The notes under the pieces were generated by a model that did no database searches, was not told the DNA's origin, and worked only from the letters and a program-made list of their open reading frames with translations. A DNA stretch of 23,646 nucleotides from assembly GCA_003667245.1 (NCBI GenBank), contig RCNN01000361.1, positions 1 to 23,646 of the forward strand. The letters are read 5' to 3'. A program made the position numbers and the translations under genes. Within the stretch, counting starts at the first letter, position 1, and the number at the start of each line of letters is the position of its first letter. Below, one piece after another: positions 1-18,420 of the stretch. Source of the stretch: Heterostelium multicystogenum. Its lineage: Eukaryota > Evosea > Eumycetozoa > Acytosteliales > Acytosteliaceae.

Positions 1-333
1 CACAGACTTTATGAAGTGGCCAATGCGCCATGAGCTAAAGTGATGAAAGTCTTTGTGCAGTAATTGCCCGATCCAATTGATCGAAGCATCTCTTACGATT
101 TGTTGGATTAGCTTGGATAATAGGAATATTTGCGCAGGGTTTACTAAGGCCTGAATGCATCCGGCCAGAATGAAGCCTGCAATCAGTATGAATAAGGTGT
201 TCATTGTTGGCTGGTTGTTGCTAAGTGCGTCTACGACTTCTCCTAGCAGTAAAGGTGGCGCGAGCGCTATAAGTTTAAGCCCTATTGTGGTAAAGGATGG
301 TAGACGTAAGCAGAGCTGTATGCTGTTTTGCAT
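1..333 (-). CDS. ABC exporter, N-terminal part of membrane domain (partial, runs off left edge)
   Basis: On the minus strand an open frame runs from an ATG at 333 to the window edge (111 codons). It reads as the start of an ABC_membrane domain: a first hydrophobic helix with IALAPPLLLGEVVDAL, a second helix around FILIAGFILAGCIQAL, then the cytoplasmic extension with QLLHKDFHHFSSWRIGHFIK. That last stretch resembles the conserved 'LL.LPL.FF..R..GDI.SR' segment of peptide and bacteriocin exporters. The ATP-binding domain would lie beyond the left edge. It follows the YcaO gene by about 60 bases on the same strand, so export of the modified peptide is the obvious role (inference). The start is uncertain: ATGs at 390 and 374 lie nearer the YcaO stop, and the ATG at 390 shares this frame but is cut by one TAA, which may be a sequence error. 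Confidence 0.72.
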   Translation of the reverse strand, partial: MQNSIQLCLRLPSFTTIGLKLIALAPPLLLGEVVDALSNNQPTMNTLFILIAGFILAGCIQALVNPAQIFLLSKLIQQIVRDASINWIGQLLHKDFHHFSSWRIGHFIKSV

Positions 334-392
334 GCTATTTTAACAAGTGTTTGCATTTGGTCGCCTATAGGCATTCTTCGCTGCATTCATAC

Positions 393-1584
393 TTATAGTG
401 TAGGGGTGGGGTAGCTGAGTAGAGTGTGCTGGGGCGCTACCAAGTTTCCACTTCTAATAATGTTGAAGCGCTCAAGGCTGGGGATGTAGATTTGTATAAC
501 GCTACAGCCGTTGGCAAACTTGGTGAGTGTTCTGAAGAATATTTTCTTTCCGTCATTGGAAAGGCGTTTTGTAATGTTTGCAGCTGATGCGGAACGCTTG
601 CTGAGAATTGTTTGTGTTGATGTTTAATGAGGGGCAGTCTCAAGTTCTTTATTGAGGAGAACTCAATGAGAGGTTTTGAGCTTTTCTGAGCTAGACAGCA
701 GCTCCAGGGTTTTCTTGTCCAGCTCCTCTCCTGCAGAGTCATACAGTTTCGTTTGCTTGGAATTGCTCCGTCACCGCTCGCTGCAAAGCTACGTTAACGT
801 CCAGCGAGGCAACCTGAGCCAACAGATGCAATATGTAGATCGCCTGCGCCCGCTCTGGGGAAAGCTGCTGCAAATAAACGCCTAAAAAATCTTTAATGAC
901 CACGATCTGGAGACGTTGGGCAGATTTTATTGCATACGGATTGTTATGTAGTGCCATCGCAAGGAGGGATTGTGGACGGGGAGTATAAATTTATGGGTGG
1001 GCCGATTTTGCAAATGCCATATAATAAAAAGCGATAGAATGTGTCGCTCAATGACTTCGAGAATGCCGTGCAAGAGGGCCTCGTCTTCGTACATCCGAAT
1101 GCCATACCTGAATTGGATGAGTAGCGGGCTAGAAAAATTTAAGTGAGAGTTTCCTTTGGGATGTTTGTTTTTGGCGATGGCTGGGCAGAGGAGCGCGTGT
1201 GGGACTAATATTTTTCCTTTTTATCAAGGGTTGTGAGCGTTAAGCATTCAAGAGGCTCCTTGATTGAGAGCAGTTGAAGAGTAAGCCATCGATTTTTGCT
1301 GGCGCTTGTGCAGCAACTGCCTTGCAGTGACACGTCGTAATACCAAGGACGATTGGTTGGCCCGCGATAAGGTGCTCTAAGCTTTCAGCGAGTGCTCCAA
1401 TAAGTGATTCGGGCCTTTGCCTGCGCCCGATGCGACTAGTTGGCTATTTGCGTCGTACAGTTCCGTCGTCGCTACTAGGTTTTTCTTTGTTTGCATACTG
1501 CGTAATCGCAGTTAGGCCCAAGCTATGAATGGTCTCTTTTATTTTTGATAGAGCATTGGTTGGGCTTAGTTCTCGCTCTGACAT
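393..1584 (-). CDS. YcaO-domain protein (RiPP azoline/thioamide-type cyclodehydratase), frameshifted
   Basis: YcaO enzymes use ATP to activate peptide backbone amides and form azolines, thioamides or amidines in RiPP precursors. About ten minus-strand fragments in changing frames line up, in order, with a whole YcaO domain of roughly 397 codons. The landmarks are: N-terminal LVASGAGKGPNHL (near 1430-1400); the first ATP/Mg motif GALAESLEHL (near 1395-1365); a VPHALLCP strand (near 1200); the second motif EDEALLHGILEVIERH (near 1100-1055); VVIKDFLGV (near 900-875); IASVGSGCLAG (near 830-800); VALQRAVTEQFQAN (near 795-750); LERFNIIRSGNLVAPQ; and a proline-rich end, YPTPTL, before TAA at 393-395. 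The last two match the usual YcaO C terminus. The start at 1584 has a GAGG ribosome site six bases upstream. The frameshifts are as dense as in gdhB, so the gene may be intact in the organism. I see no partner E1-like, TfuA or dehydrogenase gene; one could lie beyond the left edge. Confidence 0.8.
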
Positions 1585-1603
1585 GCTTGCCTCGTTATTT
1601 TTG

Positions 1604-1636
1604 AATGCCGAAAGGATTTCCCTTCGGGCATTTTTT
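1604..1636. terminator. Hairpin between the small ORF and the YcaO gene
   Basis: AATGCCGAAAGG (1604-1615) pairs with CCTTCGGGCATT (1621-1632), with one mismatch around a 5-base loop. On the plus strand it is followed by six T (1631-1636), a good intrinsic terminator. On the minus strand, the direction of the operon, it has no U tract, so it would be a leaky terminator or a processing/stability hairpin. It lies just after the candidate precursor stop (1663) and just before the YcaO ribosome site. Confidence 0.6.
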
Positions 1637-1662
1637 AGCGGGTGCTTCATTTGTATGGAATG

Positions 1663-1777
1663 TCAGTTTGTGAGTGTGGCGAAGAAGTGGACCTCGGTCG
1701 CTAGTAAGCTTTCGGATGCGCCTGCGTTTTTGCGGAAAGCCAGTCGGGATGGTTATTTCGGAGCGTTTATTACCCAT
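1663..1777 (-). CDS. Small ORF upstream of YcaO gene, candidate RiPP precursor
   Basis: The ATG at 1777 has a strong ribosome site (GAGGTGA, about six bases upstream) and opens the operon. As written, the frame runs 60 codons to a TAA at 1595 but turns into an arginine-rich string after residue 16, typical of reading out of frame. Dropping one base in the five-T run at 1727-1731 gives a 37-residue peptide that ends at TGA 1663-1665 and has much better codon-position base use (G-rich first positions). The peptide starts MGNKRSEITIPTGFPQ and ends HFFATLTN. RiPP precursors are short, sit next to their YcaO gene and carry Ser, Thr or Cys in the core. This one has Ser and Thr but no Cys. It shows no similarity I recognise, so the precursor role rests on position, size and ribosome site only. 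Confidence 0.45.
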
Positions 1778-1829
1778 TTCAATCACCTCGTTTCTATTTT
1801 GAATTAGAGGCACTCGATAGTGAGTTCCC

Positions 1830-1853
1830 CACTTGCGCGTAATTTCGCAAGTG
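1830..1853. promoter_or_regulatory. Inverted repeat at the predicted transcript start of the YcaO operon
   Basis: CACTTGCG (1830-1837) and CGCAAGTG (1846-1853) form a perfect 8-base inverted repeat with an 8-base centre. It begins at the predicted first transcribed base of the promoter at 1859-1887. It could be a repressor operator or a 5' UTR hairpin. Confidence 0.5.
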
Positions 1854-1858
1854 ATCAA

Positions 1859-1887
1859 TTAATAGCAGTGGCCCTACCTCGATTCAA
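1859..1887 (-). promoter_or_regulatory. Predicted sigma-70 promoter of the YcaO operon
   Basis: On the minus strand TTGAAT (1887-1882) is followed after exactly 17 bases by TATTAA (1864-1859). Spacing is ideal and both boxes are one base from consensus. The predicted start near 1852 gives a 5' UTR of about 75 bases before the ATG at 1777. Confidence 0.5.
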
Positions 1888-2609: not shown

Positions 2610-5600
2610 ATGGCGTTCTTCACCGCAGCCAGCAAAGCCGACTTCCAGCACCAACTGCAAGCGGCACTGGCGCAGCACATCAGTGAAACAGGCAACTGCC
2701 ACAAAGTGGCGCTGTTCGCTTGAACAATTCTTCGGCATCATTTCCCGGATGAACTGACCCAGCGTCGCTTGTCCGACCTGGCCGGTTGCACCCTGTCTGC
2801 TGGCGCCTGCTTGAGCGCTTTGATCACAACCAACCGCAAGTGCGGGTCTACAACCCCGATTACGAACGTCATGGCTGGCAATCGACCCACACTGCGGTCG
2901 AAGTGCTGCACCACGACCTCCATTCCTGGTGGACTCGGTGCGTACCGAGCTGAACCGCCGTGGCTACAGCATCCACACCCTGCAAACCACCGTACTCAGC
3001 GTGCGTCGTGGCAAGAAGGGCGAATTGCTGGAAATCCTGCCCAAAGGCACCCAGGGCGAAGACGTTCAGCAAGAATCGCTGATGTACCTGGAAATCGACC
3101 GTTGCGCCAACGCCGCCGAGCTGAGTGTCCTGAGCAAGGAACTTGAGCAGGTACTGGGCGAAGTGCGCGTTGCCGTCGCCGATTTCGAACCGATGAAAGC
3201 CAAGGTCCAGGAACTGCTGGCCGGTATCGACGCCAGCCCGTACGTGATCGACGGCGAGAAAAAGCCGAGATCAAGAGCTTCTTCCTGGAATGGCTGGTGG
3301 GCAACCACTTCATCCCTTCCTCGGCTATGAAGAGTTTGTGGTACGTGACGAGGCGGACGGCGGTCATATCGAATATGAACGCCAAACTCGTTCCTCGGTC
3401 TGACCAAACTGCTGCGCCCGGGCCTGACTACCGACGAGCTGCGCATCGAAGACTACGCGGTGAACTACCTGCGTGAGCCGGCCGTGCTGTCGTTCGCCAA
3501 GGCTGCACACCCAAGCCGCGTGCACCGCCCGGCCTACCCGGACTACGTGTCGATCCGCCCAGATTAGACGCCGACGGCAAGGTCATCAAGGAATGCCGCT
3601 TCATGGGCCTCTACACCTCCTCGGTGTACGGCGAAAGCGTGCGGGTGATTCCTTACATCCGTCGCAAGGTGACGGAAATCGAGCGTCGCTCGGGCTTCCA
3701 GGCCAAGGCGCACTTGGGCAAGGAACTGGCCCAGGTGGTCGAGGTGCTGCCCCGTGATGACCTGTTTCCAGACCCCGGTGGACGAGCTGTTCAGCACCGT
3801 GATGTCGATCGTGCAGATCCAGGAACGCAACAAGATCCGCGTGTTCCTGCGCAAAGACCCGTACGGCCGCTTCTGCTACTGCCTGGCCTACGTGCCGCGC
3901 GACATCTATTCCACCGAGGTGCGGCCAGAAGATCCAGCAAGTGCTGATGGATCGCCTGAAAGCCTCGGACTGCGAGTTCTGGACGTTCTTCTCCGAGTCC
4001 GTACTGGCTCGCGTGCAGTTGATCCTGCGGGTAGACCCGAAAACCGCCTGGACATCGACCCGCTGCAACTGGAAAAAGAAGTGGTGCAGGCCTGCCGCAG
4101 CTGGCAGGACGACTACTCCAGCCTGGTGGTGGAAAGCTTCGGCGAAGCCCACGGTACCAACGTGCTGGCTGATTTCCCGAAAGGTTTCCCGGCCGGCTAC
4201 CGCGAGCGTTTCGCCGCGCATTCGGCGTGGTCGACATGCAGCACTTGCTCAGCCTGACCGAAGCCAACCCGCTGGTGATGAGCTTCTATCAGCCGCTGGG
4301 CCAGGTTTCCGGCCAGCGCGAGCTGCATTGCAAGCTGTATATGCCGATACGCCGCTGGCGCTGTCCGATGTGCTGGCCGATTCTGGAAAACTCGGCCTGC
4401 GGGTGTCCTGGGTGAATTTCCGTGCCTGCCGTCATGCCAATGGCCGCGAGTTTCTGGATTCACGATTTCGCGTTACATCGCCGCCGAAGGTGTGAACCTC
4501 GATATCCAGCAATTGAACGACACCCTGCCAGGACGCGTTCGTGCATATCGTGCACGGCGATGCCGAAAACGATGCGTTCAACCGCCTGGTGCTGACGGCC
4601 GGCCTGCCATGGCGCGACGTGGCGCTGCTGCGTGCCTACGCCCGTTACCTGAAGCAGATTCGCCTGGGCTTCGACCTGGGTTACATCGCCAGCACCCTGA
4701 ACAACCACACCGGACATCGCCCGCGAGTTGACCCGGTTTGTTCAAGACCCGTTTCTACCTGGCGCGCAAGCTCACCGCCGAAGACCTCGAAGACAAGCAG
4801 CAACGCCTGGAACAAGCGATCCTCACGGCCCTGGACGACGTTCAGGGTGCTCAACGAAGACCGCATCCTGCGTCGCTACCTGGACCTGATCAAGGCCACC
4901 CTGCGGACCAACTTCTACCAGGCTGACGCCAACGGCCAGAACAAGTCGTACTTCAGCTTCAAGTTTCAACCCGCACGCGATTCCTGAGCTGCCCAAGCCG
5001 GTGCCGAAGTTTGAAATCTTCGTCTACTCGCCACGGGTTGAAGGCGTGCACCTGCGCTTTGGCAACGTCGCTCGCGGCGGCCTGCGCTGGTCCGACGTGA
5101 AGAAGACTTCCGCACTGAAGTGCTGGGCCTGGTAAAAGCCCAGCAAGTGAAGAACTCGGTGATCGTGGCCGGTGGGGCGCCAAGGGCGGTTTCCTGCCGC
5201 GTCGCCTGCCGTTGGGCGGCAGCCGGGACGAGATCGCGGCCGAGGGCATCGCCTGCTACCGCATCTTCATTTCGGGCTTGCTGGACATTACCGACAACCT
5301 GAAAGACGGCGCCCCTGGTGCCACCGTTGAACGTGGTGCGCCACGACAACGATGACCCGTACCTGGTGGTGGCCGCGGACAAGGGCACTGCGACCTTCTC
5401 CGACATCGCCAACGGCAATCGCCATCGACTACGGCTTCTGGCTGGGTGATGCGTTCGCTTCCGGTGGTTCTGCCGGTTACGACCACAAGAAAATGGGCAT
5501 CACCGCCAAGGGCGCGTGGGTGGGGGTGCAGCGTCACTTCCGTGAGCGCGGCATCAACGTCCAGCAAGACAGCATCACCGTGGTGGGCGTGGGCGACATG

Positions 5601-7496
5601 GCTGGCGACGTGTTCGGCAACGGCCTGTTGATGTCCGACAAGCTGCAACTGGTCGCCGCCTTCAACCACCTGCACATCTTCATCGATTCCAAACCCGAAC
5701 CCGGCCAACAGTTTCGCTGAACGTCAGCGCCTGTTCGACCTGCCGCGCTCGGCCTGGACCGACTACGACACCAGCATCAATGTCCGAAGGCGGCGGTATC
5801 TTCTCGCGCAGCGCGAAAGAGCATTGCCATCTCGCCACAGATGAAAGAACGCTTCGACATCCAGGCCGACAAGCTGACCCCGACCGAACTGCTGAATGCC
5901 TTGCTCAAGGCGCCGGTGGACCTGTTGTGGAACGGCGGTATCGGCACCTACGTCAAGGCCAGCACCGAGAGCCACGCCGATGTGGGCGACAAGGCCAACG
6001 ACGCCCTGCGCGTCAATGGCAACGAGCTGGCGCTGCAAGGTGGTGGGCGAGGGCGGTAACCTCGGCATGACGCAGCTGGGTCGTGTGGAATTCGGCCTCA
6101 AATGGCGGCGGTTCCAACACGGACTTCATCGACAACGCCGGTGGTGTGGACTTGCTCCGACCACGAAGTGAACATCAAGATCCTGCTCAACGAAGTGGTG
6201 CAGGCCGGTGACATGACCGACAAGCAGCGCAACCAGTTGCTGGCGAGCATGACCGACGAAGTCGGCAGCCTGGTGTTGGGCAACAACTACAAGCAAACCC
6301 AGGCCCTGTCCCTGGCTGCCCGCAAAGCCTTCGAGCGCGTGGCCGAGTACAAGCGCCTGATGAGCGACCTGGAAGGCCGTGGCAAGCTGGACCGTGCCAT
6401 CGAGTACCTGCCGACCGAGGAGCAGCTCAACGAGCGCGCCGCTGCGGGCAAGGGCCTGACCCGTCCGGAGCTGTCGGTACTGATCTCCTACAGCAAGATC
6501 GACCTCAAGGAAGCGTTGCTCAAATCCCTGGTGCCGGATGACGACTACCTGACCCGTGACATGGAGACCGCTTTCCCGCCGAGCCTGGTGGCGAAGTTCT
6601 CCGAAGCCATGCGTCGCCACCGTCTGAAGCGCGAGATCGTCAGCACCCAGATCGCCAACGACCTGGTCAACCACATGGGCATCACCTTCGTTCAGCGCCT
6701 CAAAGAGTCCACCGGCATGAGCCCGGCGAACGTGGCGGGCGCCTACGTGATCGTGCGAGACATCTTCCACCTCCCGCACTGGTTCCGTCAGATCGAAGCC
6801 CTGGACCACCAGGTCTCGGCCGACGTGCAACTGGAGCTGATGGATGAGCTGATGCGCCTGGGCCGCCGTGCCACGCGCTGGTTCCTGCGCAGCCGTCGCA
6901 ACGAACAGATGCCGGGCGTGATGTTGCGCACTTCGGTCCGCACCGCACCTTGCCGCGCTGGGCCTCAAGCTCGACGAACTGCTGGAAGGCCCGACCCGCG
7001 AAGGTTGGCAGAACCGTTACCAGGCTTACGTCGAAGCCGGTGTGCCGGAGTTGTTGGCGCGCATGGTTGCAGGCACTACCCACCTGTACACCCTGCTGCA
7101 ATCATCGAAGCCGCCGACGTGACAGGCCAAAGTGCGGCAGACGTCGCGAAGGCTTACTTCGCCGTCGGCAGCGCCCTGGACTTGCCGTGGTACCTGCAGC
7201 AGATCAGCAGCCTGCCCGTGGGCAACAACTGGCAGGCCCAGGCCCGCGAAGCCTTCCGCGATGACGTGGATTGGCAGCAACGGGCGATCACCATTTCCGT
7301 ACTGCAAATGGCCGATGCGCCAGAAGACATGGAAGCCCGCGTGGCCCTGTGGCTTGAGCAGCACCAGGACATGGCTGATCGCTGGCGCATCATGATGGTG
7401 GAGATTCGTGCTGCAGTCGGCACGGACTACGCCATGTACGCGGTAGCCAACCGTGAGTTGCTGGACCTGGCGATGAGCGGCCAGTCGGTGCTGTAA
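2610..7496 (+). CDS. gdhB: NAD-dependent glutamate dehydrogenase, large 180-kDa class, frameshifted
   Basis: The enzyme converts glutamate and NAD to 2-oxoglutarate, ammonium and NADH in the cytoplasm and works mainly in glutamate catabolism. The span corresponds to about 1628 codons, against about 1620 in pseudomonads. It starts with [12 protein letters not shown] at ATG 2610, behind a GGAG at 2597-2600. The catalytic region near the middle holds [14 protein letters not shown] (5055-5096) and [12 protein letters not shown] (5133-5168). The NAD-binding Rossmann motif [15 protein letters not shown] lies at about 5580-5626. The last third (about 6100-7496) is nearly continuous except for a shifted patch at about 6935-7095. 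I count about twenty one-base frameshifts, including near 2722, 2756, 2800, 2925, 3262, 3570, 3775, 3925, 4215, 4345, 4735, 5175, 5420, 5700 and 6050. Protein identity persists on both sides of every break, which points to sequence errors, not decay. The gene stands alone and is followed by its own terminator. Confidence 0.96.
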
Positions 7497-9100: not shown

Positions 9101-9134
9101 GTGTGGCTCCCTTTAAATTGAACTGTCTGCTTGG

Positions 9135-9227
9135 TGTGGCGAGAGAGCTTGCTCCCGCTGGACTGCGCAGCAGGCCCATTTTTTGGGGCCGCTTCGCGCC
9201 CCAGCGGGAGCAAGCTCCCTCGCCACA
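9135..9227. repeat. REP doublet (REPIN-like), copy 2
   Basis: It has the same architecture as 7585-7676: left arm TGTGGCGAGAGAGCTTGCTC, right arm ending CTCCCTCGCCACA, centre CTGCGCAGCAGG...GGGGCCGCTTCGCG. It differs from copy 1 at only a few bases. It lies between the transporter gene and the FadR-type regulator. Confidence 0.9.
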
Positions 9228-9245
9228 GGGGGTGAGTCTGTCTCA

Positions 9246-10558
9246 TCAGAACTCTTGGTGGGCGGGCAGCACCGGTTTTCTTGGCCTGGAAGGCATACCC
9301 TTGTTGACCGTCCAGCACCTTGTTGGGCGCGCTGGATATCGATGTCTTTTTCCCAGCGGGCGATGGCCACGGTGGCGACGCAGTTGCCGATCAGGTTGGT
9401 CAGCGCCCGGCCAATGCCCATGAACCAATCCACCGCCAACACCAGCACCAGGCCCACCACCGGAATCGCCGGGATTGCGGTGAGTGTCGCCGCCAGAATC
9501 ACCAGTGCCGAACCCGGAATCCCGTGGGCGCCCTTGGAGGTGATCAGCGACACCAGCAGGATGGTCAGCAGGTCGGTCATCGACAGCGGTGTGCCGGTGG
9601 CATTGGCGATAAACACGATGGCCAGGGTCAGGTAGATGGAGAAACCGTCGAGGTTGAATGAATACCCGGTCGGAATCACCAGGCCCACGGTGGAGCTGCC
9701 AATGCCAAGGTGTTCCAGTTTACGCATGATCTGTGGCAACACGGCATCGGAGGACGCGGTGCCCATCACGATCAACAGTTCTTCCCGCAGGTACTTGAGC
9801 AGCGGCATCATCCGCAGGCCCGACAGGCGCATCACCAGCCCCAGAATCACCGCGACGAACAGGAAGCACGTAAGGTAGAACAGGCCCACCAGGCTGCCCA
9901 GGTGTTGCAGGGAATCCAGGCCGTAGGTGCTGGTGGTGAAGGCGATGGCGCCGAACACGCCGATGGGCGCCAGGCGCACGATCATGCCCATGATGCGGAA
10001 GATCACGTGGCTCAGCTCGTTGATCAACCGCGAGATGCCGGAAGCGGCTTCGCCCACCAGGTTCAGTGCGCTGCCGAACAACACCGAGAACAACAGCACT
10101 TGCAGCACGTTGTTGTCCGCGAAGGCGCCGATCACCGAGTTGGGGATCAGGTCCATCAGGAACTGGCTGGTACCCTTGATGTGTTGGCCACGGTCTGCCA
10201 GTTCATTCAGGCCGGCAGACGACAGTTGCTCCAGGTGGATATTGGCGCCGGTGCCGATCCCGGTGCTGAAGGCCATGATCAGGCCGATCACCAGGGCCAC
10301 GGTGGTCAGTGCTTCAAAGTAGATCACCGACTTGAGGCCGATGCGCCCGACTTTCTTCAAGTCGCCGGCACCGGAAATACCGCTGACCACCACGCAGAAT
10401 ACGATCAGGCCAATCAGCATTTTGATCAGCTTGATGAAGCCGTCACCCAGGGGTTTGAGTTGCGAGGAGAATTCAGGGAGGGCGAGGCCGCAGATTATGC
10501 CGATCACCAGGCCAATCACGACTTGCAGGAAAATCGAACGCGAGCACCATCTGAGCAT
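9246..10558 (-). CDS. dctA: DctA-type dicarboxylate:cation symporter
   Basis: An inner-membrane carrier of the DAACS family that takes up C4-dicarboxylates or related acids with Na+ or H+. It starts MLRWCSRSIFLQVVIG at ATG 10558. Family signatures are GTASSDAVLPQIMRKLEHLG (re-entrant loop), VIPTGYSFNLDGFSIYLT, TSKGAHGIPGSALVILAATL, and RALTNLIGNCVATVAIARWE near the end, with about eight hydrophobic helices. The frame is intact to the C-terminal tail. There, two small shifts after IQRAQQ move it into the adjacent REP element; the tail that ends HQEF with TGA at 9246-9248 is the likely true end, giving about 437 residues. The exact substrate is uncertain because pseudomonads carry several paralogues; the symbol means the family, not proven orthology. 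A FadR-type regulator lies downstream. Confidence 0.9.
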
Positions 10559-12039: not shown

Positions 12040-13473
12040 TCAGCCAATCTGTCGCAGGATATCCCGCACCACGTCCAGCGCCGGGTCAATGTCCAGGGTT
12101 TCGATCGCGCCAAACCCGATCTTTCAGTCCCTCGCGTACTGGTGTGTCGTGGAAAAACACGCTCAGCGGATAGAGCCCCACGTCAGCCTCCCGTGCCAAT
12201 TGGGTGAGCTGCGGAATATTCACCGGCACCTTGCACAGTGCGGCCAGATGGAACCCGGCCACGGTGGGCACCACGTCGAACCACGGCGAGAGGTCCCCCG
12301 CCAGGCGCTGCAGAATCCGTTCCCGGCGCCCGGCATATACCCCATGGCAGCGCCGAATGTGCTTGAGCAGGTAGCCTTCGCTGATGAACTTGGCCAGGGC
12401 CCATTGCGGCAGGGTGGAGCTGTGCTGGTCGGTGAGTTGCTTGGCCTTGAGCACCGCGCCGAAAATCGCCGGCGGCAACACCGTGTAGCCCAGGCGCAAC
12501 TCCGGCAGCAGGGTTTTCGAGAAGGTCCCGACGTAGGCGACCACGCCGCGGGTGTCCATGCTTTGCAGGGAGTCGGTGGGGCGGCCCTCGTAGCGGAATT
12601 CGCTGTCGTAGTCATCCTCGATCACGATGGCGCCCAACGCCAGCGCACGTGCCAGCAACGCCTCACGGCGCGGCACGCTCATGGGCATGCCCAGGGGGAA
12701 CTGATGGGACGGTGTCACGTAGATCAGCCGCGTGCCGTCGGGAATCAAGTCGACCCGCAGGCCGTGTTCGTCCACCGGCACGCCCACCACGGTCGCCCCC
12801 ATGGCGTCGAACATCAGTCGCACCGGGGTGTAGCCGGGGTCTTCCATGGCGACGACGGTGCCCGGTTCCAGCACCACGCGGGCGATCAGGTCAAGCGCCT
12901 GCTGGCGCCGTTGGTGACTACGATGTCGTCTTCGCTGCACCTGACCCCACGGGAAAATGCGATATGCCCGGCGATTGCACTGCGCAGGGCCGGCAAGCCT
13001 TCCGGCCGGCTGTAGAAGCCGCTGTCCTGTGAGATACGGCGCAAGGCATCGAGGGTGCAGCGCCGCCATTCATCCTGGGGGAACTGGCTGCGGGCGGTGG
13101 CACCGCCGATAAAGTCCCGGCTCGGGCGGGTTTCACGGTTGGGGTGACCCATGGGCGCGGAAGGGCCTGCCACTTGGCCAGGTTGGCGGCGCAGGCAAGG
13201 TCGGCGGCACTTTGCAGGTGTTCGCGGCGCGTGGCCCAGGCGTTGACGAACGTGCCACGGCCGATCCTGCCGACCAACAACCCTTCGTAGGTCAGCGCCG
13301 CGTAGGTGTCTGAGACTGTCTTGCGCGGACACGCCCAGTTGCAGGGCCAGCAAGCGGCTGGGAGGCAATTGCGACCCGGCCACCAGTTGTCCCGACTCAA
13401 TGGCCGTGCGCAATTGCTGGTAAAGCTGTTCGGCCAGGTCCTTGCGGCCCTTGATAACGACGTGCAGTTCCAT
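12040..13473 (-). CDS. MocR/PdxR-type regulator: GntR winged helix fused to aminotransferase domain (frameshifted)
   Basis: About 477 codons, normal for MocR proteins, which bind PLP and often control vitamin B6, amino-acid or GABA-type genes. The N-terminal winged helix reads AEQLYQQLRTAIESGQL, LPPSRLLALQLGVSRKTV and TYEGLLVGRIGRGTFVN. The fold-I aminotransferase domain shows FYSRPEGLPALRSAIAGHI, PGYTPVRLMFDAMGA, VIEDDYDSEFRYEGRP (PLP Asp) and VGTFSKTLLPELRLGY, where SKT holds the Lys for the PLP aldimine. The end reads IGFGAIETLDIDPALD, with TGA at 12040-12042. Four frameshifts lie near 13328, 13160, 12905 and 12115. Its target is unknown; the flanking cupin and short-chain dehydrogenase genes are candidates. 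Confidence 0.92.
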
Positions 13474-15520: not shown

Positions 15521-17410
15521 TCAGATCACCAGAACTGCGCGCCCGCCGGGGTTGCAGGACAGGTTGGCACCGATTTCGACTTTCGCCAGGTCGATGCCCA
15601 GGCCGGCGAGCAGGTTATTGACCAGCGGGTCGAGGAGCGGGCTGAGCAGTCCGGAGATGATGCCGCTGAGCAGATTCAGTACGCCGGTGATCAGGCCGAC
15701 ACCACCAGGTTCAGCACCAGCCCAATCAGTCCGCCCTGTGTCGGTGGATGGTTGATCAACTGGATGCCATTGAGGGTGTTGCTCAAGCTGCCCACCACGT
15801 TGTTGGAAACTGAAACTGAAGTAATCCGGGGGGCTTTTCAACTCGGGCGGAGACAGGTAAGTGTGGTTCCGGACGGTCTTGGCCACGCTGCTGTCGATCT
15901 TCAGGCTGATGCCACCGACGCCATACGGTTGCCGGGGATCGCAGACACCGTTGCTACAGGTCTTCACCCCAAGGTCGAGTAATGGGAATTCGTCAACGTT
16001 CAGTGGTGCTGTGGAGGAAAACAGGTTTTTTGGGTCGATCTGGCCCACCATCAGCCTAACCGCCGAGGTGGTACCGAGCACCGACAAGGCTTTGTCCGCA
16101 GGCCCGTTGCAGCGATATCCGGTGACCGTGCTGCTGCCGCTGGCGGCTTCCAGTGCTACATCGATTTGCTGGCCGATTTTGGGGTCAAAGGAGCTGCCTA
16201 ACAAGATGCCCACCAGCGCCGTTACCCCGCCCAGTAAATCGTTCACCGCGCCGATTGCCGGCAGTTTCACCGAGATCAACGTCCTGACTTGCGCGGTCCT
16301 GACGTAGATCGGCTGGGTGGCGATCAGCTTGGGTTACCTTATGGCGGAAACCTGCGCCGGTTCAATGACCTTGGTCTTGACCGTGATATTCAGCAGTCCC
16401 AGCACATCCACCGGCAACTCCACCGCGACCGCGTTGTACTTGTTCGACAGTTGCACAAACCCCTGGATCAGGTTGAACAGTTGCAGGTTAACGTCCAGGG
16501 CGCTCTTGTCGGTGCCGTTCTGGATGGTCAGCAGGTCGCCCAGGTGCAGGATCTTGGTGCCGGGTGCAATCAGCTTGATCGCTTCCAGGTTATTGATCAC
16601 CACCTTGACCGCATCGCCCCCCAGCTTGAGTACATCTATCGCGGCCTGGATCAGATCGCCGACGCTGGCGTCGGTCTTGAGCAACTCGTCGTAGTTGCCG
16701 GCGCTGACCTTCAATTGAATCGCCAGCGCGTCCAGGTAACTGAGCAGGTTGATATCGGTATTGATCAGGCCCTTCCAGCCCACCGCATCGAGTTGCAATT
16801 TGCCCCCCAGCAGTCCGCCGATCAACGCATTGAGTGCCGCGGACTTGGTGCTGTCCACGGTCAGCAAGGTGCTGCGGATGGTCAGTACGGCCACCGGTGG
16901 CGCGGGCACGGCGGCCACGGCCACTGCCTGCAACCGGATGGTCGGCTCGAAAGGGCCGGTGGAGAGCAGCATGAACAGGCGGTTGGCGATACTGGTGACG
17001 ACGCGGTGGGTGGCGATGACCTGGATCGCATCGGACCTTGAGGGATTGGGGCTGAAGGCGCGCATGAAGTCAGCCCCGGTGACCAGGGTGCCACAGGTGG
17101 TCGCCAGGGTACGGTCTTCGTTGAGCGGGAAATCATTGCGGGCTGCGCTTTGGATCGCGAATTGCGCGGCGTTGGTATTCGGCGTCACGCAGGCGCCGCC
17201 GCGGGTGACCACTTCCAGCGCCGCGGTGTCGGCAACCCGTTGCAGCTTGCGCTTTTCCAGGTACAGCCGGCCGCTGTCGACCACCAGCAACAGGAACAAC
17301 AGTGCGATCCCAGGGTCATCGCACCCATCAGTCCTATTGCGCCGCGTTGGCGGCCGAGCCGGGTCCTTGGCAAACCATCCTGCGTTCCTTCGCCGGTCCA
17401 GTACCGGCAT
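15521..17410 (-). CDS. TadG-like (TadE/G, DUF2134-type) membrane-anchored protein, frameshifted
   Basis: About 630 codons. Near the N terminus is the TadE/G hallmark, a basic stretch RLGRQRGAIGLMGAMTLG followed by a single hydrophobic helix (IALLFLLLVVDSGRLYLEKR) and LQRVADTAALEVV. The rest is a long exported domain with a CVTPNTN segment, many Leu/Ile/Asp repeats (about residues 200-450) and a Gly/Leu-rich end (LLSGIISGLLSPLLDPLVNNLLAGLG). Such proteins are usually minor components of Flp/Tad pilus systems or of a related exported complex. Frameshifts lie near 17360, 17310, 16320 and 15700-15800. I chose ATG 17410 because GAGGGG stands nine bases upstream. The ATG at 17470 overlaps the preceding gene's stop (TAATG) and is an alternative. 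No other tad gene is visible here. Confidence 0.78.
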
Positions 17411-17469
17411 TCTGAGTATCCCCTCAGGCAGTGTAGTCAGGTTTTGCAAGGATTCATGGCTATTGGCCA

Positions 17470-18420
17470 TTATTTTCGCGGAGGCAGTGCCACGGGCGTC
17501 AGCACAGGGCGGCCGGCAAAGTATTCCAGCAGGTTGTCCGCCACGCGCTGCACGGTGTCATGGGCGGCTTCCGGCGACAGGCCGGCGACGTGGGGCGTGA
17601 GCACGGTATTGCTGAGGCGCTTGAGCGCGTCGGGCACGTTGGGTTCATCGTCGAACACGTCCAGTGCCGCGCCGCCGATGCGCCGTTGCTCCAGGGCGGT
17701 AATCAGGTCGGCAGTGACCACCACGCTGCCACGGCCGATGTTCACCAGGAAACCGTTGGGCCCCAGTGCATCGAGGGCCTGGCGGTCGATCAAATGTCGC
17801 GTGCTGGCGCCGCCCGGGGTGGCCAGGATCAGGAAGTCCGAGGCCCGCGCCAGTTCCACGGCGGTGGCGCAGTAGGTGTAGTCCACATCTTCGCGGGGCT
17901 GGCGGTTGTGATAACTCACCTCCATGCCAAAACCCAGGGCAGCCCGCTTGGCGATTTCCAGGCCCACGGCCCCCAGGCCGAGAATGCCCAGCTGTTTGCC
18001 GGCCAGGGAAGGGCGCATTATCTTGGGCCATTCGCTGCGCCGTACTGCTGCGTCCGCCCGGGGAATGTCCCGCACCAGGCACAGCAGCAAAGCCATGGCG
18101 TGGTCGGCCACCGACGGCGCATTCACCCCGGCGCCATTGGTGACCACGATTCCACGGTTGCTGGCGGCTTGCAGGTCCACGTGTTCATACCCGGCGCCGA
18201 TCACGCAGATGATCTCAAGCAGCGGCAGCGCGGCGATTTCCTCGGCGTACAGGCCCAGCGGGCCACGGGTCAGCACCGCCTGGACCTGCCCGCCGTGGGT
18301 CTTGATGGCCTTGGCGCGTTCGGCCGGGGTGGGCGCAAGAATCACGTGAAAGCCATTGCCTTCGATGATCGGCAGGTAGTCGTTGATGGTTTCAACCAGG
18401 ACCAGAACGGTGACGGGCAT
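17470..18420 (-). CDS. D-2-hydroxyacid dehydrogenase (glyoxylate/hydroxypyruvate reductase type)
   Basis: An intact 316-residue frame, one of the few unbroken genes in the window. The NAD(P)-binding motif is GILGLGAVGLEIAKRA. The catalytic Arg lies in VNIGRGSVV, the Glu in ALDVFDDEP and the His in LTPHVAGLSPEA. Together they are typical of the family that reduces glyoxylate, hydroxypyruvate or 2-ketogluconate. The start MPVTVLVLVET at 18420 follows AGGAA at moderate distance. The TadG-like frame may overlap its stop codon. I cannot choose among GhrA, GhrB and TkrA-type activities from the sequence, so no symbol is given. Confidence 0.94.
   Translation of the reverse strand: MPVTVLVLVETINDYLPIIEGNGFHVILAPTPAERAKAIKTHGGQVQAVLTRGPLGLYAEEIAALPLLEIICVIGAGYEHVDLQAASNRGIVVTNGAGVNAPSVADHAMALLLCLVRDIPRADAAVRRSEWPKIMRPSLAGKQLGILGLGAVGLEIAKRAALGFGMEVSYHNRQPREDVDYTYCATAVELARASDFLILATPGGASTRHLIDRQALDALGPNGFLVNIGRGSVVVTADLITALEQRRIGGAALDVFDDEPNVPDALKRLSNTVLTPHVAGLSPEAAHDTVQRVADNLLEYFAGRPVLTPVALPPRK

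Follow-up and report, generated by a model that had tools for sequence, protein, structure and literature searches.

We identified a three-gene cassette, very probably of RiPP type, that comprises a precursor peptide, a YcaO enzyme and an exporter and lies on the minus strand of positions 1-1777 of the window, by which we mean the whole stretch of 23,646 nucleotides that was analyzed. A precursor-type small ORF is followed in this region by a hairpin, the YcaO gene and the start of the exporter gene, as detailed in the table below. The same organization is found in other genomes: in 40 of 48 related loci a precursor ORF precedes ycaO and an ABC exporter follows it, in several genomic settings. 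The RiPP-type operon proposed in the first-pass annotation of this DNA is thereby borne out, and that interpretation as a whole is partly supported.

Table. Parts of the cassette located in the window
Feature	Position	Strand	Basis and remarks
Ribosome-binding-like GAGGTGA before the precursor ATG	1783..1789	-	Read directly
Precursor peptide gene	1663..1777	-	Frame-broken; MGNKRSEI N-terminus at ATG 1777; C-terminal piece to the stop at 1663-1665
Hairpin between precursor and ycaO	1604..1632	-	Folding of the spacer
YcaO gene, about 397 codons, about 13 frame changes	393..1584	-	PF02624 pieces and P0002 alignment
ABC exporter start, membrane domain only, cut by the contig end	1..333	-	ABC_membrane and TIGR01193

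The YcaO landmarks that the first-pass annotation had followed across frames, and had assigned to one enzyme of about 397 residues, were recovered in order. When single-frame pieces of the window were compared with PF02624, the piece at 930-1220 matched profile positions 126-151 with 23.5 bits (E 4e-5), narrowly short of the 25.7 cut-off, and the piece at 742-990 matched positions 209-233 (E 0.13), in the right order relative to the former; the remaining single-frame pieces gave no YcaO match to this profile. The signal was confirmed through a stop-free single-frame stretch of the window, whose sole match (E 6e-20) was P0002, an intact protein of 396 aa that stands for 41 member sequences, scores 91.4 bits against PF02624 (cut-off 25.7) and is collinear with 1584-399 (minus strand) across the frame changes. 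Seven of the 13 ungapped pieces of this alignment are 93-100% identical and the other six 60-93%. A PF02624 search of the window's own assembly gave no match, which can be expected because the gene is cut into short frames. The proposed ABC exporter was also recognized, as the minus strand of 1-333 matched ABC_membrane below its cut-off (E 1e-4, 22.2 bits; cut-off 28) and TIGR01193 in its N-terminal membrane part (E 3.5e-7, 29.1 bits; cut-off 524). Pfam and NCBIfam profiles did not match the two precursor pieces of the window; an intact 37-aa homologue occupies the same place in L001, the closest relative. For the minus-strand promoter that had been proposed, a consensus scan, which is a weak test, found a single site, located on the plus strand, with 2.9 expected by chance.

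The left part of the window is Pseudomonas-like, and the window is probably a bacterial contig inside a eukaryotic or mixed assembly, or belongs to a bacterial companion of a eukaryote. The assembly comprises 29.7 Mb in 528 contigs, and an RF00177 search of it returned three SSU matches of bacterial or organelle type. To the right of the cassette, positions 2610-7493 (plus strand) encode the NAD-glutamate dehydrogenase gdhB, most pieces of which are 91-100% identical to the intact 1619-aa protein of Pseudomonas sp. K2I15 (locus L001). Its frame changes are a sign of frequent sequence errors on the left side of the contig, and error is likelier than decay behind the broken cassette frames because this core gene is frame-broken too. 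It is improbable, in our estimation, that the window holds a decayed copy instead of a functional cassette seen through sequence error. Decay would suit the denser frame changes of ycaO (about 13 in 1.19 kb, or about 11 per kb) compared with gdhB (about 30 in 4.88 kb, or about 6 per kb), as well as the open frames of 316-481 codons kept by some genes further right; the breaks extend beyond the cassette, yet they are unevenly spread along the contig. However, gdhB is intact in relatives and broken here in the same contig, the ycaO pieces between breaks are near-identical to intact P0002, and the cassette is richer in A/T (GC 46% versus about 60%), where run-length errors are commoner. Further right on the minus strand, Pfam recognized a dicarboxylate symporter (9113-10558), an aminotransferase (12086-13069), a Tad-like pilus protein (16337-17470) and a D-2-hydroxyacid dehydrogenase (17473-18420). 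The whole window gave three plasmid matches by megablast, at 73-76% identity.

The 48 loci were obtained by scanning one genome per species and belong to Pseudomonas, Vibrio, two Bdellovibrionales MAGs and one Herbaspirillum. Seven of them have neither the precursor motif nor the exporter, and looser neighbour clustering placed exporter-family members in 43 loci, with some of these ABC genes not adjoining ycaO. Neighbour-family clustering across the 48 loci revealed no third gene recurring beside the cassette. Other recurring neighbours are confined to subsets of loci; gdhB and a chromosomal operon, for example, adjoin the cassette in many loci of the P. fluorescens group, as they do in the window. 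Only ycaO and the exporter recur adjoining each other in relatives, in agreement with the minimal system that the first-pass annotation had offered as one alternative. In L001, a 37-aa ORF, a hairpin, a 398-aa YcaO and a 567-aa exporter are followed by other genes. The TIGR01193 match of this exporter begins at profile position 148 and reaches 131.8 of 523.85 bits; the exporter carries ABC_membrane and ABC_tran with two weak AAA matches; Pfam found no peptidase domain in it, and the N-terminal C39 peptidase of TIGR01193 was not found. Three Vibrio plasmid records contain a YcaO relative at E 1e-10 and the same trio is present in all three plasmid stretches, one plasmid being typed as conjugative; phage records contained no YcaO relative at E 1e-5.

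Several individual loci depart from the common form. Vibrio amylolyticus carries three YcaO relatives (L036, L040, L045) on one contig, of which L036 has the full trio. L040, L045 and L046 have neither a motif precursor nor an exporter, and a small ORF beginning MGHYYRV lies directly upstream in L045. Three loci look damaged: L041 retains the exporter and only part of ycaO, ycaO of L065 is matched as two overlapping pieces, and L069 has a precursor with the N-terminal motif present and the C-end disrupted, together with a partly matched ycaO.

From the plus strand of the loci, 45 distinct precursor peptides were gathered by their N-terminal motif, and two more were seen besides. In the motif, MGxxR[S/T]EI, the opening MG is followed by one or two residues, mostly basic, and then by R, S or T, E and I. 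It begins exactly at the ATG in 45 of 45 peptides (one residue shorter in L038), and ExxF occurs in the last 16 residues of all 45; these two features and the spread over Pseudomonas, Vibrio (plasmids too) and Bdellovibrionales are the only ones independent of the motif-based gathering. Residue 6 is Ser in 34 peptides and Thr in 11. The precursors are 28-43 aa long, with a drifting middle of 11-22 residues, and Ser or Thr stands just before the invariant Glu in 33 of 38 aligned peptides. An azoline-rich core in the middle is unlikely on the sequences, because Ser, Thr and Cys are all lacking from three of the 45 middles and none of the middle positions is fixed. Elsewhere in the 48 loci, on either strand, MGxxR[S/T]EI was not found, and several codons are used for the invariant residues. 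Across 11 independent close pairs, dN/dS was 0.03 in residues 1-8, compared with 0.21 in the middle and 0.13 at the C-end. A chance ORF was rejected on the basis of the ATG-fixed motif absent elsewhere in the loci, the varied codons and dN/dS. The near-unchanging first eight residues point to a conserved, apparently undescribed modified-peptide product. This precursor family, its fixed N-terminus and its likely N-terminal core were absent from the first-pass annotation.

The upstream small ORF, its ribosome site and the hairpin had been described there and are present in the window; the ORF and hairpin are conserved in relatives, most of which have a Shine-Dalgarno match of 4-6 bases upstream of the ORF. 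In 35 of 38 relatives the spacer between precursor and ycaO contains a stem of 8 bp or more, and in 33 of 38 it folds with z < -2; a control stretch taken from within ycaO does so in 5 of 38. The stem sequences differ between clades. A small ORF of this size and position, with a hairpin before the enzyme gene, could also represent a regulatory leader peptide of ycaO instead of a substrate. We consider this attenuator very improbable, as both peptide ends are under constraint, most strongly the N-end, and a peptide-exporter-like gene follows in 40 of the 48 loci.

YcaO enzymes perform ATP-dependent activation of backbone amides, and the enzyme of the cassette has the expected features. The predicted fold of P0002 is that of YcaO (mean pLDDT 90) and matched 41 PDB chains at E <= 0.001, with M. 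jannaschii YcaO 6peu as the top match. The invariant columns include GxGKG, the two Glu of the A-E-EH block, E177, E180 and R181, which we take to be ATP/Mg ligand positions. A search with P0002 returned 111 further proteins at E <= 1e-10, which, where the organism is named, come from Pseudomonas, bar one Paraburkholderia and one compost metagenome. The proline-rich C-terminal tail that had been read from the window is not a family feature: PxPxP was found in the last 20 residues of none of 104 homologues of at least 380 aa. The accessible text of PMC12338566 ties this motif to azoline-forming YcaOs. The suggestion that a classic partner might lie further left also fails in the relatives, in which no third gene recurs; TfuA (PF07812) is absent from 19 of 21 genomes, and the E1-like TIGR03882 scored above its cut-off in none of the 21, with weak sub-cut-off matches in 17 of them, as also in 5 of 14 control genomes. 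An azole cluster with partners to the left was rejected on the neighbour clustering and the TIGR03882 result, and nothing found favours azoles or TfuA thioamides, PxPxP being likewise absent from the homologues. It is quite improbable that the enzyme forms a thioamide, the sulfur being donated by another component of the cell. The best equivalog-type profile of P0002 is TIGR03266, the McrA-glycine thioamidation protein (62.6 bits of a cut-off of 365), and its nearest solved relatives among the folds tried are the archaeal thioamide-type YcaOs 6pe3/6peu, both in line with thioamidation; against it, TfuA is present in only two of the 21 genomes and is not recurrent in the cassette. The YcaO of L001 itself scored best against the general YcaO domain model.

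A profile of the YcaO family, sister group included, gave matches at E <= 1e-10 in 43 of the 298 Pseudomonas genomes. Thirty loci were fetched from these genomes, of which 17 have an MGxxR[S/T]EI precursor, 12 are of a sister type and one is the disrupted L069. The sister group comprises 15 loci (L037, L039, L042, L066-L068, L070-L078) whose precursors follow the pattern MGY[MIL]...NAN...EQIEALQLTEEEQAEL or come close to it, have 41-46 residues, start with M-G at the ATG in 15 of 15 and have a conserved C-end. The two groups share a related YcaO (26-29% identity to P0002) and the M-G start at the ATG, but the sister precursors differ in their core-like part, MGYM.SWNAN, and in their C-end, EQIEALQLTEEEQAEL. 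In L037, L039 and L042 no family-1 ABC exporter follows ycaO, and two other gene families do so in all three; in L037, ycaO is followed by a methyltransferase and a hydrolase of the prolyl-aminopeptidase family. In a quick, midpoint-rooted tree of 44 YcaOs, 34 of the 38 enzymes with an MGxxR[S/T]EI precursor form one clade (support 0.66). The other four, from Vibrio, join three YcaOs without this precursor (support 1.0), and that group joins the sister type at 0.92. Either the motif is ancestral or it was exchanged.

Building on the observed genes, their order and conservation, and the lack of a recurring third gene, we propose a mechanism with an N-terminal core, a C-terminal follower, amide activation by a stand-alone YcaO and export, to which, taken whole, we give about an even chance. 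The ribosome would make a precursor of 28-43 residues, the hairpin allowing more precursor than enzyme to be produced, and removal of Met1 would expose an N-terminal Gly. The YcaO would bind the C-terminal follower through its ExxF motif, unaided by an E1-like, ThiF-like or TfuA partner, and with ATP would activate one of the backbone amides of the N-terminal core GxxR[S/T]EI. From Gly2 at the ATG-fixed N-terminus, the invariant Arg and the Ser/Thr that follows, we infer that activation takes place there, most likely at the carbonyl of Arg5, the residue preceding invariant Ser/Thr6. A macro-amidine as in bottromycin would then arise if the Gly amine attacks, or an oxazoline if the Ser/Thr hydroxyl does, and the product would be 18 Da lighter. 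The exporter would carry the product out, whole or after trimming by a host protease, and may give immunity.

Several observations tell against this mechanism. Conservation alone cannot tell a core from a recognition site, the cassette contains no protease, P0002 is nearest to thioamide-type enzymes by the profiles and folds tried, and the four Vibrio enzymes group with YcaOs that have no MGxxR[S/T]EI precursor. The weak TIGR03882 matches, the two genomes with TfuA and the seven loci that have neither precursor motif nor exporter count on the same side. The motif might instead be a very short recognition leader, with the core in the middle or in the C-terminal ExxFF stretch and the whole peptide possibly exported. 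Recognition parts are usually the conserved ones in RiPP precursors, the C-end is constrained as well (dN/dS 0.13), and a Ser or Thr precedes the invariant Glu in most aligned peptides, all of which would fit such a leader. We nevertheless regard it as unlikely: the start of the motif is fixed to the ATG, and the middle drifts without a fixed residue and, at a dN/dS of 0.21, gives no sign of diversifying selection.

With an N-terminal core, a wider proposal may be put forward tentatively, at somewhat less than even probability: that the cassette represents a RiPP class of its own, hitherto undescribed and produced by close to the smallest YcaO machinery possible, in which N-terminal GxxR[S/T]EI becomes a small amidine or oxazoline product and the rest acts as follower, with a sister class acting on MGY...NAN. 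If so, Pseudomonas chromosomes, Vibrio plasmids and Bdellovibrionales would all encode nearly one and the same product, which would probably be a conserved signal, a metal ligand or a broad inhibitor, not a diversifying bacteriocin. The near-invariant N-terminus likewise predicts one conserved product, not a library. Few stand-alone YcaOs, which have to locate and activate a single amide unaided by a partner, have been characterized; here one enzyme, a substrate of 28-43 residues and one transporter are small enough for reconstitution in the test tube.

The enzyme is of a known kind; what appears to be new is the family of precursors, together with the minimal form of three genes and its distribution. 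In the open-access literature, searched with literal motif strings included and with most subscription papers outside its scope, we found no description of the precursor family or the cassette, nor did the accessible parts of PMC8120280 and PMC12636437 describe it. Works on spyrimidone and on amidines from ammonia are cited in the accessible part of PMC12338566. For Pseudomonas, the portions consulted of the respective papers name microcin B17-like clusters (PMC4603692, PMC8719888) and YcaO-TfuA clusters (PMC8719888), and mention an unspecified ycaO homologue in one Pseudomonas (PMC9369656). The microcin B17-like clusters share with the cassette the genus, a YcaO and peptide export, but are described in those portions with an E1-like/McbB partner and a flavin dehydrogenase (PMC4603692, PMC8719888), no such partner recurring in the cassette, whose precursor also has no Gly/Ser/Cys-rich repeats. 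YcaO-TfuA thioamide systems share the YcaO fold, with thioamide-type archaeal YcaOs as the nearest profile and structures, whereas the cassette is without TfuA.

Closer comparisons are offered by the stand-alone enzymes. For streptamidine, an amidine product from a stand-alone YcaO is proven according to the accessible text of PMC8442711, which describes streptamidine-type systems of Actinobacteria and Firmicutes and does not name Pseudomonas or Vibrio. They resemble the cassette in the stand-alone YcaO and in a precursor poor in Ser/Thr/Cys-rich regions, but their core is internal with a leader, their typical cluster has many more genes, and their two described precursor motifs are unlike that of the cassette (PMC8442711, same text). 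The bottromycin precursor starts with Met-Gly, and the cassette precursors, with their fixed M-G start and conserved C-end, are consistent with an N-terminal core and C-terminal follower, as a candidate layout only. Bottromycin of Streptomyces has, in the accessible parts of PMC7136475 and PMC5103208, an N-terminal core, a conserved C-terminal part as follower and stand-alone YcaOs without partner proteins, and an attack of its Gly1 on the Val4-Val5 amide has been proposed (PMC5103208). Counting four residues in from Gly in the cassette precursors, one reaches the carbonyl of the invariant Arg, a parallel in spacing that is suggestive by analogy. Bottromycin differs in having two YcaOs, methyltransferases, an amidohydrolase and a P450 (PMC7136475, PMC5103208, parts as above), whereas the cassette has only one YcaO and an exporter, and its putative core is different and basic. 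If its core is indeed N-terminal, the cassette would provide a second, simpler case of follower-guided YcaO chemistry.
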